From contig DYDT01000030.1 in NCBI GenBank assembly GCA_020404485.1, forward strand, positions 1-15,040: a DNA stretch of 15,040 nucleotides. Reading direction: 5' to 3'. Of the stretch, positions 1,742 to 15,040 are shown piece after piece. The position numbers and the translations under genes were made by a program. Each line of letters starts with the position of its first letter. Positions within the stretch are counted from its first letter, which is position 1. The notes under the pieces are model-generated. The model searched no databases, had not been told where the DNA came from, and was given only the letters and a program-made list of their open reading frames with translations. This DNA is from Rickettsia endosymbiont of Diachasma alloeum (GTDB taxonomy: Bacteria > Pseudomonadota > Alphaproteobacteria > Rickettsiales > Rickettsiaceae).

Positions 1742-2203
1742 ATGCAGCAATTTAGTATTTATCAAACTAGTGATGAATTACTGCTGAAAGCGATATTTCT
1801 TTTAATAGAGAAATGTTATTATTCTGATCTTAAGAGCGTTGTACTTACTGTTGATACAGAACAGCAAGAAATGCTAAATAAAAACCTTTGGACTTATTCA
1901 CGTAAACAATTCATTCCTCACGGTAGTAAAATCGACCCGCAGCCTGAAAAACAGCCTATTTATATTACTGATACACTACAAAACCCCAATAAGGCTAATG
2001 TGCTTATTATTATCTCACCACCTAATATAGAGAAAATCTTACAAGATAAAGAATATATTGGTATTTTCAAAAGAATAATTATAATAACCGATTTGTCAGA
2101 AGATTTAAAAATCCTAACTTCTAAGATCAACCAAATTACCGGACAAGACAACTCTATAGATTGCTTCACTCAAGATCAACGTGGAACGTGGAGTAAAATA
2201 TGA
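1742..2203 (+). CDS. holC: DNA polymerase III chi subunit
   Basis: A 153-residue protein. In the replisome, chi pairs with psi in the clamp-loader complex and contacts single-strand-binding protein. Family hallmarks are WTYSRKQFIPHG near residues 50-61 (equivalent to the family's W-F-PH pattern), the following PEKQPIYIT, the NPN-A-VLIIIS segment, and a C-terminal GTWSKI that matches the usual GxWxKK-type ending of alphaproteobacterial chi proteins. An open frame extends upstream, but it would overlap the tRNA; ATG 1742 is the first plausible start outside it. No good Shine-Dalgarno is visible. The frame stays open for 49 codons beyond the TGA (separate entry). Confidence 0.85.
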   Translation: MQQFSIYQTSDELLLKAIFLLIEKCYYSDLKSVVLTVDTEQQEMLNKNLWTYSRKQFIPHGSKIDPQPEKQPIYITDTLQNPNKANVLIIISPPNIEKILQDKEYIGIFKRIIIITDLSEDLKILTSKINQITGQDNSIDCFTQDQRGTWSKI

Positions 2204-7462: not shown

Positions 7463-8471
7463 ATTCCCTAATGCATTTTACTAAAAATTCTACATTTTCT
7501 GGTGGTGTTTCGGGTAAAATACCATGACCTAGATTAAAAATAAAATTCTTATTTCCCATTACTGATAAAATTTTGTGGATTTTTTCTTTTATTATTCTTT
7601 TATCAGTAAGCAATACTACCGGATCTAAATTACCCTGCACTATTACTTTATTACTCCATAATTTCATTTTCTCAAGCGGTACTAATGGGTCAATAGCTAA
7701 AATATCTGTTGGCACTTCTTTTACAAATTTTTCATATAAAAGCCCTGCACCTTTGGGAAAAGTAATAATAGGAATATTTGGAAAAGCCTCTTTTAAATTC
7801 TTTATTATTTTCTTCGTTGGTTCTATCACAAAGTCATTAAATTCTTCTTCTGGTAAAATACCAGCCCATGAATCAAATATTTTTATTATGTTTGTGCCTG
7901 ATTTTATTTGATTTATAAGATGATGAATTGTTTTTTCCGTAATAAACTCAAGTAATTCTTTTGCTAACTCTTCATTTTCGTAAATAAATTTTTTACTAAC
8001 TCTAAAATCTTGTTTACCTTTTCCCTCTAACATGTAAGTCATTACTGTCCAAGGGCTACCAGCAAAACCTATTAGAGAAGTGGATTTAGGTAACTCTTCT
8101 CTTACCTTTCTTACTATTTCATATACTTTTTCTAACTTATCACTAGAATTATTTTGCAAATATTTAAAATCTTCTTTTGATTTAAATTGCTTTAGTACCG
8201 GTCCAATATTTTCTTTAAAATCTACTTCCCAACCAAGAGCATGAGGCAATACTAATATATCAGAAAAAATTATAGCTGCATCAAAGCCAAAACGTTTTAT
8301 CGGTTGGAGTGTTACTTCTGTTGCCTTATCTACATCATAACAAAATTCTAAAAAATTCTTTACCTCTTTTCGTACTGCCATATATTCAGGCAAATACCTA
8401 CCAGCTTGTCGCATTAGCCAAATTGGTGGTTTATTATCTAATATTTTAATAGGATTGGAAATTAACGTCAT
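7449..8471 (-). CDS. hemE: uroporphyrinogen decarboxylase
   Basis: A 340-residue cytoplasmic TIM-barrel enzyme that removes four acetate carboxyls from uroporphyrinogen III to give coproporphyrinogen III. Both family signatures are seen: [16 protein letters not shown] near residues 15-30 (with the substrate Arg pair) and [18 protein letters not shown] near 136-153. The active-site Asp is in [14 protein letters not shown] near 68-81, and the C-terminal [16 protein letters not shown] completes the barrel. It heads the hemE-hemH-hemJ cluster and flanks the predicted replication origin, reading away from it. The start ATG has only a weak ribosome-binding site. Confidence 0.97.
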
Positions 8472-8862: not shown

Positions 8863-9690
8863 ATGACAAAGATGATTATTCACCTAGTTTCAGACTCTTC
8901 TGTTCAAACTGCAAAGAGTGCAGCTCATTCTGCTCTTGCTCAATTTACTTCTTTAAAACCAAAATTATATCATTGGCCGATGATTAGAAATTTAGAATTA
9001 TTAAAAGAAGTATTGAGTAAGATAGAATCAAAGCATGGTATTGTATTATATACAATTGCAGATCAAGAACTAAGGAAGAATCTGACAAAATTTTGTTATG
9101 AATTAAAAATTCATTGTATTTCGGTAATAGGTAAAATAATTAAAGAAATGTCAGTTTTTTCAGGGATTGAGATAGAAAAAGAGCAAAATTATAATTATAA
9201 ATTCGATAAAACTTATTTTGATACCCTTAATGCCATCGATTATGCTATAAGACATGATGATGGGCAGCTACTTAATGAATTACAATTTGCAGATATTGTG
9301 TTAATAGGTCCATCTAGAACTTCTAAGACTCCTACTTCCGTGTTTTTAGCATATAATGGGCTAAAGACAGCAAATATTCCTTATGTTTATAATTGCCCTT
9401 TTCCTGATTTTATAGAAAAAGATATAGATCAATTGGTAGTAGGGCTTGTAATTAATCCAAATAGATTAATAGAAATAAGGGAAACTAGGCTGAATTTGCT
9501 ACAAATTAATGAAAATAGAAATTATACAGATTTTAATATAGTCCAAAAAGAATGTTTAGAAGTTAAAAAAATTTGTGAACTAAGAAATTGGCCAGTAATA
9601 GACGTATCAACAAAATCAATAGAAGAAACTGCAGCTTTAATAATGCGGATATACTATAATAGAAAAAATAAGTATAACATACTCGTTTAA
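8863..9690 (+). CDS. pyruvate, phosphate dikinase regulatory protein (PSRP/DUF299 family)
   Basis: A 275-residue bifunctional ADP-dependent kinase / Pi-dependent pyrophosphorylase predicted to inactivate and reactivate PPDK by phosphorylating its active-site threonine. Family features are the N-terminal [12 protein letters not shown], the P-loop-like [11 protein letters not shown] near residues 149-159, the following YNCPFPD and [17 protein letters not shown], and the C-terminal [19 protein letters not shown]. The target PPDK is not in this window. This gene is the first on the right-hand side of the predicted origin. ATG 8863 is used; an ATG three codons later (8872) is also possible. No clear Shine-Dalgarno. 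A DnaA box lies just upstream. Confidence 0.93.
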
Positions 9691-9800: not shown

Positions 9801-9863
9801 CTACTTCTTATTTATTTTATGATTGATAATAAAAAATAAAAATTTTCATTCGATATCATTTTA

Positions 9864-9892
9864 TTTACAAGTATAGTTTGGTAATTTATAAT
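9864..9892 (+). promoter_or_regulatory. sigma70-type promoter of the trxA cluster
   Basis: TTTACA (9864-9869), a 17-nt spacer and a perfect TATAAT (9887-9892). Transcription would start near 9899, leaving a leader of about 20 nt that contains AGAGGA (9911-9916) before the trxA ATG at 9920. It probably drives trxA and the tightly packed genes behind it. Confidence 0.8.
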
Positions 9893-9919
9893 TTTACTTG
9901 TAAAAAATATAGAGGACAT

Positions 9920-10237
9920 ATGGCAAGCAACGTAACAGATAAATCTTTTGAAGAAGAAGTATTAAAATCAGATTTACCTGTGTTAGTAGATTTTTGGGCT
10001 GAGTGGTGCGGTCCATGTAGAATGTTAACCCCAATAATAGAGGATATAAGTAAAGAGCTAGAGAACAAAGTAAAAGTACTTAAAATGAATATTGATGAAA
10101 ATCCAGAAATTCCTTCAAAATATGGCATTCGCAGTATCCCAACAGTAATGTTATTTAAAAATGGTGAACAGAAAGATACTAAAGTAGGATTGCATCAGAA
10201 AAGTTCGCTTATAGAATGGATTAACAATAATATATAA
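9920..10237 (+). CDS. trxA: thioredoxin 1
   Basis: A 105-residue cytoplasmic dithiol oxidoreductase that reduces protein disulfides and serves ribonucleotide reductase and other reductases. The active site WCGPC is at about residues 30-34, within FWAEWCGPCRMLTP; the cis-proline loop RSIPTVMLFKNGE and the Gly-rich end are normal. An in-frame upstream extension of 14 residues from 9878 is rejected, because the promoter -10 lies inside it and AGAGGA sits 3 nt before ATG 9920. It is followed after 11 bp by wzt. Thioredoxin with a cell-surface exporter and a redox enzyme is an odd mix, so the cluster may reflect packing rather than shared function. Confidence 0.97.
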   Translation: MASNVTDKSFEEEVLKSDLPVLVDFWAEWCGPCRMLTPIIEDISKELENKVKVLKMNIDENPEIPSKYGIRSIPTVMLFKNGEQKDTKVGLHQKSSLIEWINNNI

Positions 10238-10995: not shown

Positions 10996-11768
10996 TAAGA
11001 TATTTTTTATCTAAGAAATATTGGGAAGCGGTAATATTATTAGTCAAAGCATCTATAATAAGACAAAATAAAGACTCTTTTTTAGGCTCTTTATGGAGTC
11101 TAATTCAACCATTTATTAATATATTAGTAATTTCATATTTTTTCGGTTTTTTACTACATCAGCCAAGAGAATTTTTGATAATGAATTTGGTTGGAGGGAT
11201 GCCTTTATGGACTTTTATATTGAGTAGTTTGACAATTTCTTCAAATTCTTTAGTAACACGTGACCAAGTAATAAAAAAAGTCAGAATTTCTAAGACTTTT
11301 TTCCCAGTTGCAGATACTTTAGCACAGCTATATAATTTGTTTTGTTCATTTTTGGCAATGTATTGTGCTTTTATTTTGTTATTTCCAGAAAAGTTTACAT
11401 GGCAAATAATATTTATGCCGATATTAATTTTACCACTAATAATTTGTACAATTAGTGGTTCTATTGCAATGGCTTTTCTAACACCTTATATCCGTGACAT
11501 ACCACAAATATTAAATGTTGTTTTAGGAGTCATTTATTGGAGCATACCTATAATTTATCCATATTCATTAATCCCTGAAGCTCAAAGAGACTTTTTTGAG
11601 CTTAACCCGTTCTTTATAATTATAAGACCTGCACAATCATTGGTAATTGATGGAACATTACCGGATTTATTATCAATAGGTAAATCTGTATTAGTAGCAT
11701 TTATAACTGTTTGTATAAGCTATTTAGTATATAAACGCTTTTCAAAAAGAGTTATTTATTACCTATGA
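10992..11768 (+). CDS. wzm: polysaccharide export ABC transporter, permease subunit
   Basis: A 258-residue ABC-2 type integral membrane permease with about six hydrophobic segments (roughly 40-60, 68-88, 110-130, 137-165, 171-192 and 228-247). An amphipathic N-terminus contains the family pattern KASIIRQNKDSFLGSLWSL. The pairing with wzt indicates export of a lipid-linked polysaccharide across the inner membrane, probably the rickettsial O-antigen-like polymer; the substrate is inferred. The 3' end overlaps the start of the next gene by 4 nt, so translation is likely coupled through to the oxidoreductase. Confidence 0.9.
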   Translation: MIRYFLSKKYWEAVILLVKASIIRQNKDSFLGSLWSLIQPFINILVISYFFGFLLHQPREFLIMNLVGGMPLWTFILSSLTISSNSLVTRDQVIKKVRISKTFFPVADTLAQLYNLFCSFLAMYCAFILLFPEKFTWQIIFMPILILPLIICTISGSIAMAFLTPYIRDIPQILNVVLGVIYWSIPIIYPYSLIPEAQRDFFELNPFFIIIRPAQSLVIDGTLPDLLSIGKSVLVAFITVCISYLVYKRFSKRVIYYL

Positions 11769-14700
11769 AGCTTGGTTTTAATCTAGATTTTAAAAAATTA
11801 GATTTAACCGGTCTTAAAAAATTAGATCAAATATTTTTAGATTATCTCTTCAAAGCTAATGAATCGCTTTATGATAATATATTATTATTTAGATCTAATC
11901 CTCATTCTGTTCTCTCTCAAGATTATTCCGAGTTTTTATTAAATGTATCTCCTTATTTAGATGATTTTCTAGCAGAATTATTTTGTATTTCAAACGAAGT
12001 TACAAGTTTAAGATTACAGCATAAAGATTTTGATATTATTTATGAGTGTAAAAGAAAATTTGTCCAGCGTTATGCCATCAAGAAATATTCACAAGAAAAA
12101 ATAAAAGATATAGGTTTTGAGGATATATATTTAAAATTAGCTGATTTAATAGGTAAAAATTTTACTTCTAAAGATTTCGCTAAACAAGTAATTATATGGC
12201 AACAAGCAGAAGAGAGTTTTGTAAAAGAATTAGATATAGCCGCACAATATGCTGCTTATAGGGTTTATTGGTGTAATAGTGTCATCCTGTGGACAAGCCA
12301 CAGAATCCAGAAAAAACAAATAAATCCTGTGGCGAGGTCACAGGATGACATCCTATTCGATCTCCCACAAAAGCTAGATAAAGAAAATCTAATAGATGAT
12401 AAAAAAATATCTAAATATCAAAAAAACGAAAGGTTAAATTTTGATTATACAGATTCCTTTTTAAATCTGGATGAAGCTTTAAACCACTCTCATTATTGTA
12501 TTTATTGCCATAAGCAAGATAAAGATAGTTGTTCTAAGGGTCAAAATGTCATCCCGCGGCTTGACCGCGGGATCTTGGATCACAAACTGTCTCTTAAGAT
12601 CCCGCGGTCAAGCCGCGGGATGACAACCGGTTGCCCTTTAAAACAAAAAATTTCTGAGATGAATTACGTTAAAGCTCAAGGCTTTAATTTAGGTGCACTT
12701 GCAATTATTGTTATAGATAATCCGATGGTTGCGGCTACTGGTCACAGAATTTGTAATGATTGCTCAAAGGCTTGTATTTATCAAAAGCAAGATCCGGTAA
12801 ATATACCACTAATAGAGTCGAATATTTTAGAAGAAACGCTTAAATTACCTTATGGTTTAGAGATATATCTACTTTTAACTCGTTGGAATCCGCTTAATAT
12901 TTATAACCCGCTACCAAAAGAATCTACTAACTATAATATTCTGGTTACAGGGCTTGGTCCGGCAGGTTTCAGTCTTAGTTATTATTTATTACGATCTGGT
13001 CATAATGTCACGGCTATTGATGGCTTGAAAATTACACCTCTACCTTTTGATATTCACAAGCCTATAAAATTCTGGCATGAATATAAAAATAAATTGTCTG
13101 AAAGAGTACCGAAAGGATTTGGTGGGGTAGCGGAGTATGGTATTACTGTTCGTTGGGATAAAAACAACCTTGATATATTAAGGCTAATACTAGAGCGAAA
13201 TAACAAGTTTAAATATTATGATGGGGTGGCTTTAGATTTTAATGTAACGAAAGAGCAAGCCTTTGATTTAGGTTTTGATCATATAGCTTTCTGCATTGGA
13301 GCTGGCAAGCCAAAAATTTTAGATATAGAGAATTTTGATGCTAAAGGTGTTAAAACAGCTTCGGACTTTTTAATGACTTTGCAAAGCGGTGGAGCGTTTT
13401 TAGGAAACTCTAATACTAATATACTTATTAGAATGCCGATTGCAGTAATTGGCGGCGGTCTTACCTCCCTAGATGCAGCAACAGAAAGCTTATATTATTA
13501 TAAAAAGCAGGTAGAGAGTTTTGTTCAAGATTACGAGATTGCTGTTGCCAAATACGGCAAAGATTATACGGAAAAAGATTGGACTGAAGAAGATAAGGAA
13601 ATAGCCGAGGAATTTATTGCTCATGCAAAATTATTTGAGAAAGCTAAAAATAATGAAGAGCTAAAAGAGGTTTTTAAGAAACTTGGCGGAGCTACTATTT
13701 ATTATCGTGGGAAGCTGCAAGATTCGCCGGCATATAAATTAAATCATGAGGAGCTAATATATGCATTAGCATTAGGAGTTAATTTTGAAGAAAATATGCA
13801 GACTTTGAGAATTAATAATGATAAATATGGGCATGTGGAGTCGGTGGAGTTCGGGAATAGAGACCGTCATTGCGAGGAAATGCGTAGCATTGACGCGGCA
13901 ATCTCGTTAAATCAAACTCCTAAGATTGCCACGCAGCCAAAGGCTGCTCGCAATGACGTCAAAGCCAAAACCGTGATCATGGCAATTGGTATAGAAAACA
14001 ATACCGAATTTGATGAAGATAAATATAGCTACTTTGGAGATTGTAACCCTAAATACTCAGGTAGCGTAGTTAAGGCTCTTACTAATAGTAAAGATGGCTA
14101 TGAGGCTATTAATAAGAAGTTAGCAAATAATAACCCGAATTTTAAAGGTGATTATAAAAACTTTGTAAAACAGCTAGATGATTTGTTAATTAGCAAGGTT
14201 TACAAAATAAACATCTTAGATGATAAAATTTTTGAGTTAGTAATTCACTCACCACTTGCTGCTAGGAATTTTAAGCCAGGGCAGTTTTTCCGCTTACAAA
14301 ATTATTCTGCTGATGTAACTAAATTAATAGAGCCTATTGCCCTAAGTGTTGCGGATATTAATGTAGAAAGCGGCTTGATTAGTTTTATAATATATGATGT
14401 CGGCAAATCAACTAACTTATGTAAATTGTTTTCTGAAGATGAAAAAGTAATTTTAATGGGACCAAGCGGGATGCCATTAGAGATACCGAAAAATAAAAAA
14501 ATAGTGATTGTTGATTCCGAACCGAACAATGTTTTAATTAAAACTCTAAAAGATAACAATAACGAAGTTATGTTTTTTACTTATTCTGAGATAAAAACAC
14601 AAAAGCTAACTTCAGTAGATAGAGTAATAATTAATGCATCACCTGAAATAGCAGAAGAGTTAAAAAGCTTAAAAATATTCGGTGAAAGTGCAGAGATAAT

Positions 14701-14893
14701 TGTTAGCGTTAATTCATCTATGCAATGCATGATGAAAGGGATTTGTGGGCAGTGTATACAAAAAGTTGAAGATGAAAGAAAATATATTTTTGCTTGTAGC
14801 TGCCAAAATCAAAAAGCAGAAATAGTTGATTTTGAAAGCTTAAAAACCCGCTTGCGTCAGAATTCTTTGCAAGAAAAGATGAAGAAGCTATAG
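11765..14893 (+). CDS. fused GltD/NfnB-like and PyrK/NfnA-like flavo-iron-sulfur oxidoreductase
   Basis: 1042 residues. Residues 1-about 240 are mainly helical and unrecognised. A cysteine-rich Fe-S region follows: Cys245, Cys248, Cys256 and Cys290, then Cys330, Cys333 and Cys337 in HRICNDCSKACIYQ. A GltD-type FAD domain has GLGPAG at 396-401, and the second dinucleotide motif GGGLTS is at 563-568. From about residue 800 comes an FNR/PyrK-like module with PGQFFRL near 837 and MGPSGMP near 897, ending in a [2Fe-2S]-like set Cys988, Cys994, Cys997 and Cys1011. This order resembles NfnB joined to NfnA (ferredoxin:NADP transhydrogenase) or SudA-SudB; substrate and partners are unknown. Three palindromic elements are read in frame (residues 172-196, 261-287, 701-732). 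The start overlaps the wzm stop. Confidence 0.85.
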   Translation: MKLGFNLDFKKLDLTGLKKLDQIFLDYLFKANESLYDNILLFRSNPHSVLSQDYSEFLLNVSPYLDDFLAELFCISNEVTSLRLQHKDFDIIYECKRKFVQRYAIKKYSQEKIKDIGFEDIYLKLADLIGKNFTSKDFAKQVIIWQQAEESFVKELDIAAQYAAYRVYWCNSVILWTSHRIQKKQINPVARSQDDILFDLPQKLDKENLIDDKKISKYQKNERLNFDYTDSFLNLDEALNHSHYCIYCHKQDKDSCSKGQNVIPRLDRGILDHKLSLKIPRSSRGMTTGCPLKQKISEMNYVKAQGFNLGALAIIVIDNPMVAATGHRICNDCSKACIYQKQDPVNIPLIESNILEETLKLPYGLEIYLLLTRWNPLNIYNPLPKESTNYNILVTGLGPAGFSLSYYLLRSGHNVTAIDGLKITPLPFDIHKPIKFWHEYKNKLSERVPKGFGGVAEYGITVRWDKNNLDILRLILERNNKFKYYDGVALDFNVTKEQAFDLGFDHIAFCIGAGKPKILDIENFDAKGVKTASDFLMTLQSGGAFLGNSNTNILIRMPIAVIGGGLTSLDAATESLYYYKKQVESFVQDYEIAVAKYGKDYTEKDWTEEDKEIAEEFIAHAKLFEKAKNNEELKEVFKKLGGATIYYRGKLQDSPAYKLNHEELIYALALGVNFEENMQTLRINNDKYGHVESVEFGNRDRHCEEMRSIDAAISLNQTPKIATQPKAARNDVKAKTVIMAIGIENNTEFDEDKYSYFGDCNPKYSGSVVKALTNSKDGYEAINKKLANNNPNFKGDYKNFVKQLDDLLISKVYKINILDDKIFELVIHSPLAARNFKPGQFFRLQNYSADVTKLIEPIALSVADINVESGLISFIIYDVGKSTNLCKLFSEDEKVILMGPSGMPLEIPKNKKIVIVDSEPNNVLIKTLKDNNNEVMFFTYSEIKTQKLTSVDRVIINASPEIAEELKSLKIFGESAEIIVSVNSSMQCMMKGICGQCIQKVEDERKYIFACSCQNQKAEIVDFESLKTRLRQNSLQEKMKKL
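12280..12350. repeat. in-frame palindromic element 1 in the oxidoreductase gene
   Basis: A 71-bp element with edges TGTCATCCTGTG and CACAGGATGACA, exact complements. It is a shortened relative of the 79-bp family, with local stems CCTGTGG/CCACAGA and CCTGTGG/TCACAGG. It encodes about residues 172-196 (VILWTSHRI ... PVARSQDD). Its left edge enters the gene in the same orientation and frame as the element at 12547. Confidence 0.88.
12547..12625. repeat. in-frame palindromic element 2 (79 bp, perfect arms)
   Basis: Arms 12547-12576 and 12596-12625 are perfect 30-nt reverse complements around a 19-nt loop, and each arm contains its own CCCGCGG/CCGCGGG stem. It encodes residues 261-287, starting VIPRLDRGI and ending IPRSSRGMT, and inserts between CSKG (Cys256) and GCPLKQ (Cys290) of the Fe-S region. 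The perfect arms suggest a recent or conversion-maintained copy. Confidence 0.95.
13865..13958. repeat. in-frame palindromic element 3 (CGTCATTGCGAGGA family)
   Basis: Edges CGTCATTGCGAG (13865-13876) and CTCGCAATGACG (13947-13958) are exact complements, and the inner ACGCGGCAATCT pairs nearly perfectly with AGATTGCCACGC. It encodes residues 701-732, beginning RHCEEMRSIDAAI, and sits directly before the predicted strand TVIMAIGIENN. It is the same family as the intergenic 3141-3236 element. Confidence 0.9.
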
Positions 14894-14907
14894 CTAACGC
14901 GACTAGA

Positions 14908-14925
14908 ATTATTCCTTAGAATAAT
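14908..14925. repeat. small AT hairpin after the oxidoreductase gene
   Basis: ATTATTC-CTTA-GAATAAT forms a perfect 7-bp stem 15 nt past the stop codon. There is no T-run, so it is a poor intrinsic terminator. It might belong to the end of the following insertion sequence. Confidence 0.35.
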
Positions 14926-14954
14926 GTAAGATAATGATTTTAACTACGGTAGAG

Positions 14955-15009
14955 ATGAAAGCATACAGTCAGGATTTAAGAGATAGGGTAATCAGTCTTC
15001 ACAAAACCT
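14955..15009 (+). mobile_element. 5' fragment of an IS630-type transposase gene
   Basis: ATG 14955 opens a frame reading MKAYSQDLRDRVISLHKT, the typical start of IS630-family transposases, where this begins the helix-turn-helix DNA-binding domain. GTAGAG lies just upstream; an in-frame ATG at 14934 is also possible. The frame is cut at about 15009, where linker sequence replaces genomic DNA and creates an artificial stop. The rest of the element is outside the window. Family assignment rests on only 18 residues. Confidence 0.6.
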
Positions 15010-15040
15010 CGTAATAACTTCGTATAGCATACATTATACG
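15010..15040. other. sequencing linker containing partial loxP (artefact)
   Basis: The last 31 bases read CGTA followed by 27 of 34 bases of loxP: the arm ATAACTTCGTATA (15014-15026), the spacer GCATACAT (15027-15034) and TATACG. Including the CGTA flank, this agrees with my recollection of the reverse strand of the Roche 454 Titanium paired-end linker. It is almost surely untrimmed linker, not rickettsial DNA. Confidence 0.93.

Follow-up and report, generated by a model that had tools for sequence, protein, structure and literature searches.

The last 31 bases of the window, that is, of the whole stretch of 15,040 nt analyzed in this study, are with a probability of about 99% library-construction DNA, namely an untrimmed loxP mate-pair linker, and not bacterial DNA. 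Positions 15010-15040 of the forward strand read CGTAATAACTTCGTATAGCATACATTATACG and consist of the tetranucleotide CGTA and, after it, 27 bases of the 34-base loxP site. They are identical to bases 1-31 of the 42-base Roche/454-type Cre-loxP circularisation adaptor (31/31, no mismatches). The window is the entire contig C30 (15,040 bases) of an assembly comprising 196 contigs and 990,679 bases; therefore, the sequence ends at the contig end, inside the linker. The earlier note had reported 27 consecutive loxP bases with a CGTA flank at this end and had interpreted them as a mate-pair linker. The former is confirmed by the exact match, and the latter is supported by the 31/31 identity, by the further copies in the genome, and by mate geometry at five of six ends on contigs longer than 9.5 kb. 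Taken as a whole, the stretch at 15010-15040 is an ordinary artefact and not a real biological feature.

The linker at the right end of the contig

The 31-mer was the sole match in the 15,040-nt window when up to three mismatches were allowed, and none of 200 dinucleotide shuffles contained such a match. The full 34-base loxP pattern was not found in the window, since its last 7 bases would lie beyond the contig end. The 5' boundary of the linker is accurate to within one base, as a linker-free copy of the adjoining sequence on contig C64 also has C opposite position 15010. The coordinates of the linker and of the features discussed below are collected in Table 1.

Table 1. Features of the window and mapped outer flanks of linker copies on other contigs
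Feature	Position	Strand	Implied fragment	Evidence
Whole 1042-aa gene, glutamate synthase beta/FAD-dependent oxidoreductase family, untouched by linker	window 11765-14893	+		NCBIfam NF005128
Left part of IS common to contig C64, one mismatch at 14898	window 14888-15009	+		sequence comparison
IS630-like transposase frame, genomic start, cut by linker after 18 whole codons	window 14955-15009	+		C64 copy
First 31 bases of 42-base loxP circularisation linker, artefact truncated by contig end	window 15010-15040	+		31/31 identity, genome copies, PMC5199103 adaptor
False TAA stop of transposase frame, within linker	window 15012-15014	+		C64 copy open here
C39 left, outer flank	8985-9103		8.9 kb	
C39 right, outer flank	9851-9962		9.4 kb	blastn and script
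C75 right, outer flank	1879-1905		9.1 kb	
C106 right, outer flank	9109-9149		8.1 kb	
C15 left, outer flank	7661-7683		7.6 kb	

Identity of the 42-base adaptor

Both strands of the 42-base adaptor are printed in PMC5199103, in which they were screened from mate-pair libraries whose preparation followed the 454 protocol and used Cre and the Roche circularisation adaptor. All 31 bases of the window match this printed adaptor, so that the comparison with a published linker, for which the earlier note had called, agrees with its proposal. In PMC3253782, the Roche 454 paired-end kit based on Cre-loxP is described, with the linker as the mark of the junction. Compared with the Roche/454-type adaptor, all 31 window bases are the same, as are all 42 bases in 37 other copies in the genome, and the only difference is that the window copy is shortened to 31 bases by the contig end. 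Compared with the loxP of phage P1, 27 of 34 bases are present and identical in the window. However, records of P1-like phages match at most bases 3-39 of the 42-base linker; therefore, the outermost bases are the adaptor's own. The site in the window is preceded by the CG of the adaptor, and these first two bases, both outside the stretch common to P1-like records, are all that separate the adaptor from P1-like sequences within the window.

The same linker could also stem from a different platform with a borrowed Cre-loxP adaptor, for example, a Roche/Illumina hybrid mate-pair method. This possibility, which is compatible with the linker reading, is unlikely but deserves some weight: the libraries of PMC5199103 were Roche/Illumina hybrids, and PMC5710592 gives the identical 42 bases for a 2-kb Cre/loxP mate-pair library in a passage that makes no mention of 454. 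Outer flanks of up to 175 bases suggest fairly long reads and argue weakly against it.

Copies across the draft genome

The 21-base core ATAACTTCGTATAGCATACAT was found in the source genome in 43 exact copies and one copy with a single mismatch, distributed over 39 contigs. Forty-three of these 44 copies are no more than 179 bases away from a contig end, and the remaining one is located 544 bases from an end of C9, a contig with two copies. The complete 42-base linker CGTAATAACTTCGTATAGCATACATTATACGAAGTTATACGA, in either orientation, is present at 37 of the 44 places, and the left copy of C103 matches over 41 bases with one mismatch. The other six copies are shorter: four are cut exactly at the contig end (C11 right, C30, C135, and C194), and two (C18 and C93) reach to within 2 bases of it. 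A search with the 13-base loxP arm added six places beyond the core list (C14, C76, C136, C155, C183, and C184), which are probably shorter linker remnants. The exact core was absent from the 84 other genomes of the family, leaving the source genome as the sole positive among 85.

Mate-pair geometry

In a mate-pair junction, the outer flank beyond the linker is predicted to be the other end of the same fragment, located on the same strand and one fragment length inward. This prediction was tested for 22 ends whose outer flanks were 14 bases or longer; 20 of them were compared with 19 of the 196 contigs, including that of the window, and the ends of C15 and C120 were each compared with their own contig alone. 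On contigs longer than 9.5 kb, five of six ends had their mate on the same strand of their own contig, 7.6-9.4 kb inward (Table 1). For the right end of C120, the outer flank of just 24 bases had no mate on its own contig at up to four errors. On contigs no longer than 9.2 kb, none of the 16 ends tested had a same-contig mate, as expected for shorter contigs; three of these mate-less contigs (C82, C183, and C150), with lengths of 8.6-9.2 kb, may have had room for one. When random 23- and 24-mers taken from other contigs were compared with C15 or C120 as a control, matches with up to three errors arose in 0 or 1 of 200 trials per setting.

The mate spacing at the five ends is that predicted by a mate-pair library of about 8 kb and is decisive for the linker reading, and we know of no natural site that shows such a spacing of 7.6-9.4 kb. 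The window's own copy, in which the contig ends inside the linker, would have arisen in the same manner as the five tested ends. Besides the ends that lacked a mate, one odd case counts against the linker reading: unlike the junctions elsewhere, the linker in the region 125-338 of C54 does not join DNA 8 kb apart and lies inside a copy of the repeat that is also present at the left end of the window, between bases matching window positions 51 and 56, which are near-neighbours in other copies. This may reflect two fragment ends within repeat copies, or a consensus error.

The core shared with the loxP of P1-like phages is what would favor a genuine P1-like loxP site in the genome, acting as a natural Cre target. 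Nevertheless, such a site is highly improbable, since P1-like records do not extend over the full 42 bases that 37 copies possess, the copies cluster near contig ends, five ends show mate-pair geometry, the exact core is missing from the 84 other genomes of the family, and the insertion sequence on C64 carries no such site. Additionally, no tyrosine recombinase (PF00589, XerC/XerD family) was found in the assembly, whereas 14 of 14 controls were positive; the assembly is 88.9% complete, and therefore these genes may merely be missing from it. The false Cre target that the earlier note had warned of at the contig end is thus explained as a linker artefact. That a loxP-bearing sequence spread naturally to many places in an insect-symbiont Rickettsia is scarcely credible. 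Deliberate engineering of the strain with loxP, in favor of which no evidence emerged, would be just as hard to reconcile with 44 copies, 37 of them exactly in the form of the library adaptor, and with five ends whose flanks belong 7.6-9.4 kb apart.

Proposed origin of the artefact

Under the mate-pair linker reading, a sheared fragment of about 8-9 kb would have received loxP adaptors by a Roche/454-type method and would then have been circularised by Cre. The junction piece that was sequenced would have contained the fragment end, the 42-base linker, and the fragment start, in this order. The linker was presumably left untrimmed before assembly, and reads ending in it would have lengthened the contig by 31 (or 30) bases beyond its genomic part, which ends within an IS630-like element. 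What was observed directly is the letters, the genome-wide copies, their proximity to the ends of contigs, and, for five other ends, the mate distances; the exact library kit, the lack of trimming, and the like origin of the window's own copy are what we infer from them. The chemistry name Titanium, used for the linker in the earlier note, is likewise an assumption. A literature search returned no paper with both the linker core and Titanium, and no paper combining 454, linker, loxP, Rickettsia, and contigs.

The interrupted IS630-like element

The 110 bases at 14900-15009 are identical to positions 8496-8605 of C64, and the identity between the two contigs starts at 14888, in the last codon of the upstream gene. 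Beyond this shared part, C64 continues for 194 bases without linker to its own contig end. Read from the ATG at 14955, the frame runs into a TAA at 15012-15014 as its first stop and then into a second TAA, whereas the C64 frame from the same ATG stays open for 83 codons up to the contig end. The stop in the window is therefore false, because it lies within the linker and the C64 copy is open there. This bears out the false stop codon of which the earlier note had warned.

The 83 readable residues of the C64 copy matched the HTH_23 and HTH_Tnp_IS630 models. In tests of the IS630 type on these residues, PF01710 scored 22.6 bits (cut-off, 21.3), and the NCBIfam model transpos_IS630 gave a weak score of 28.4 bits against a curated cut-off of 100. 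Among 28 genomes, including the source genome, the left 314 bases of the element had no close copy outside the source genome, and short matches of 32-40 bases were found in three of the 28.

The earlier note had also suggested a repeated IS as the place where the contig broke. The 5' 110 bases of the element are present twice in the genome (C30 and C64) and the next 194 bases once, and both copies are cut by contig ends. A break of the right end of C30 in a repeated IS is therefore plausible but only partly shown, in that it fits these data without being proven by them. The case for a repeat break is better at the left end of the window than at the right. Positions 1-180 belong to a repeat that matches the genome at 21 other places. 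All 15 matches on contigs of known length are no farther than about 130 bases from a contig end; the remaining six are on C12, C16, C56, C170, C188, and C192.

The upstream gene and other features of the genome

The gene upstream of the element is whole, since the family model NF005128 spans residues 1-1042 of its product and since the product ends in the same 20 residues as the three relatives examined. This 1042-aa gene carries in-frame inserts that resemble Rickettsia palindromic elements. Of two relatives compared, one carries a different insert at the first site, and in the second relative the inserts at both sites differ; some relatives are annotated as RPE4 or RPE5 domain proteins. A tRNA-Leu gene is located at 1631-1716 of the window.

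The draft genome comes from a Rickettsia near the bellii group. The passages of PMC6067683, a paper that might have dealt with this Rickettsia, gave no support for such a link. One protein was, over part of its length, 97% identical to those of the Rickettsia endosymbionts of Pantilius tunicatus and Nabis limbatus, and another was 92% identical to that of Rickettsia sp. MEAM1 and 91% to that of R. bellii.

Consequences for the draft genome and spread in public records

The sequence of the draft genome is false at some 44 or more sites, and the linker remnants could be mistaken for stop codons, gene ends, or Cre targets. Additionally, the true place of the DNA on the far side of a linker may be several kb distant, as was shown for five ends. 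A scan of public genome contigs with the 27-mer returned at least 97 stretches, with at least 125 copies of the 27-mer, at least 104 of the 34-base loxP, and at least 70 of the complete 42-base linker; among the matches listed were Gemmata sp. IIL30, Legionella tunisiensis, and Candidatus Paracaedibacter symbiosus. Some of the matches may be real or engineered loxP sites. The complete linker thus also occurs in unrelated public draft genomes, and the matter is one of data quality and the cleaning of records.

Linker bases 2-42 are also present in the record of Lactococcus phage Q33 (JX564242.1, 17544-17584; also NC_049809.1), at the end of the portal gene. They take the place of some 36-40 bases found here in phage BM13, and the portal protein in the Q33 record ends earlier than that of BM13.
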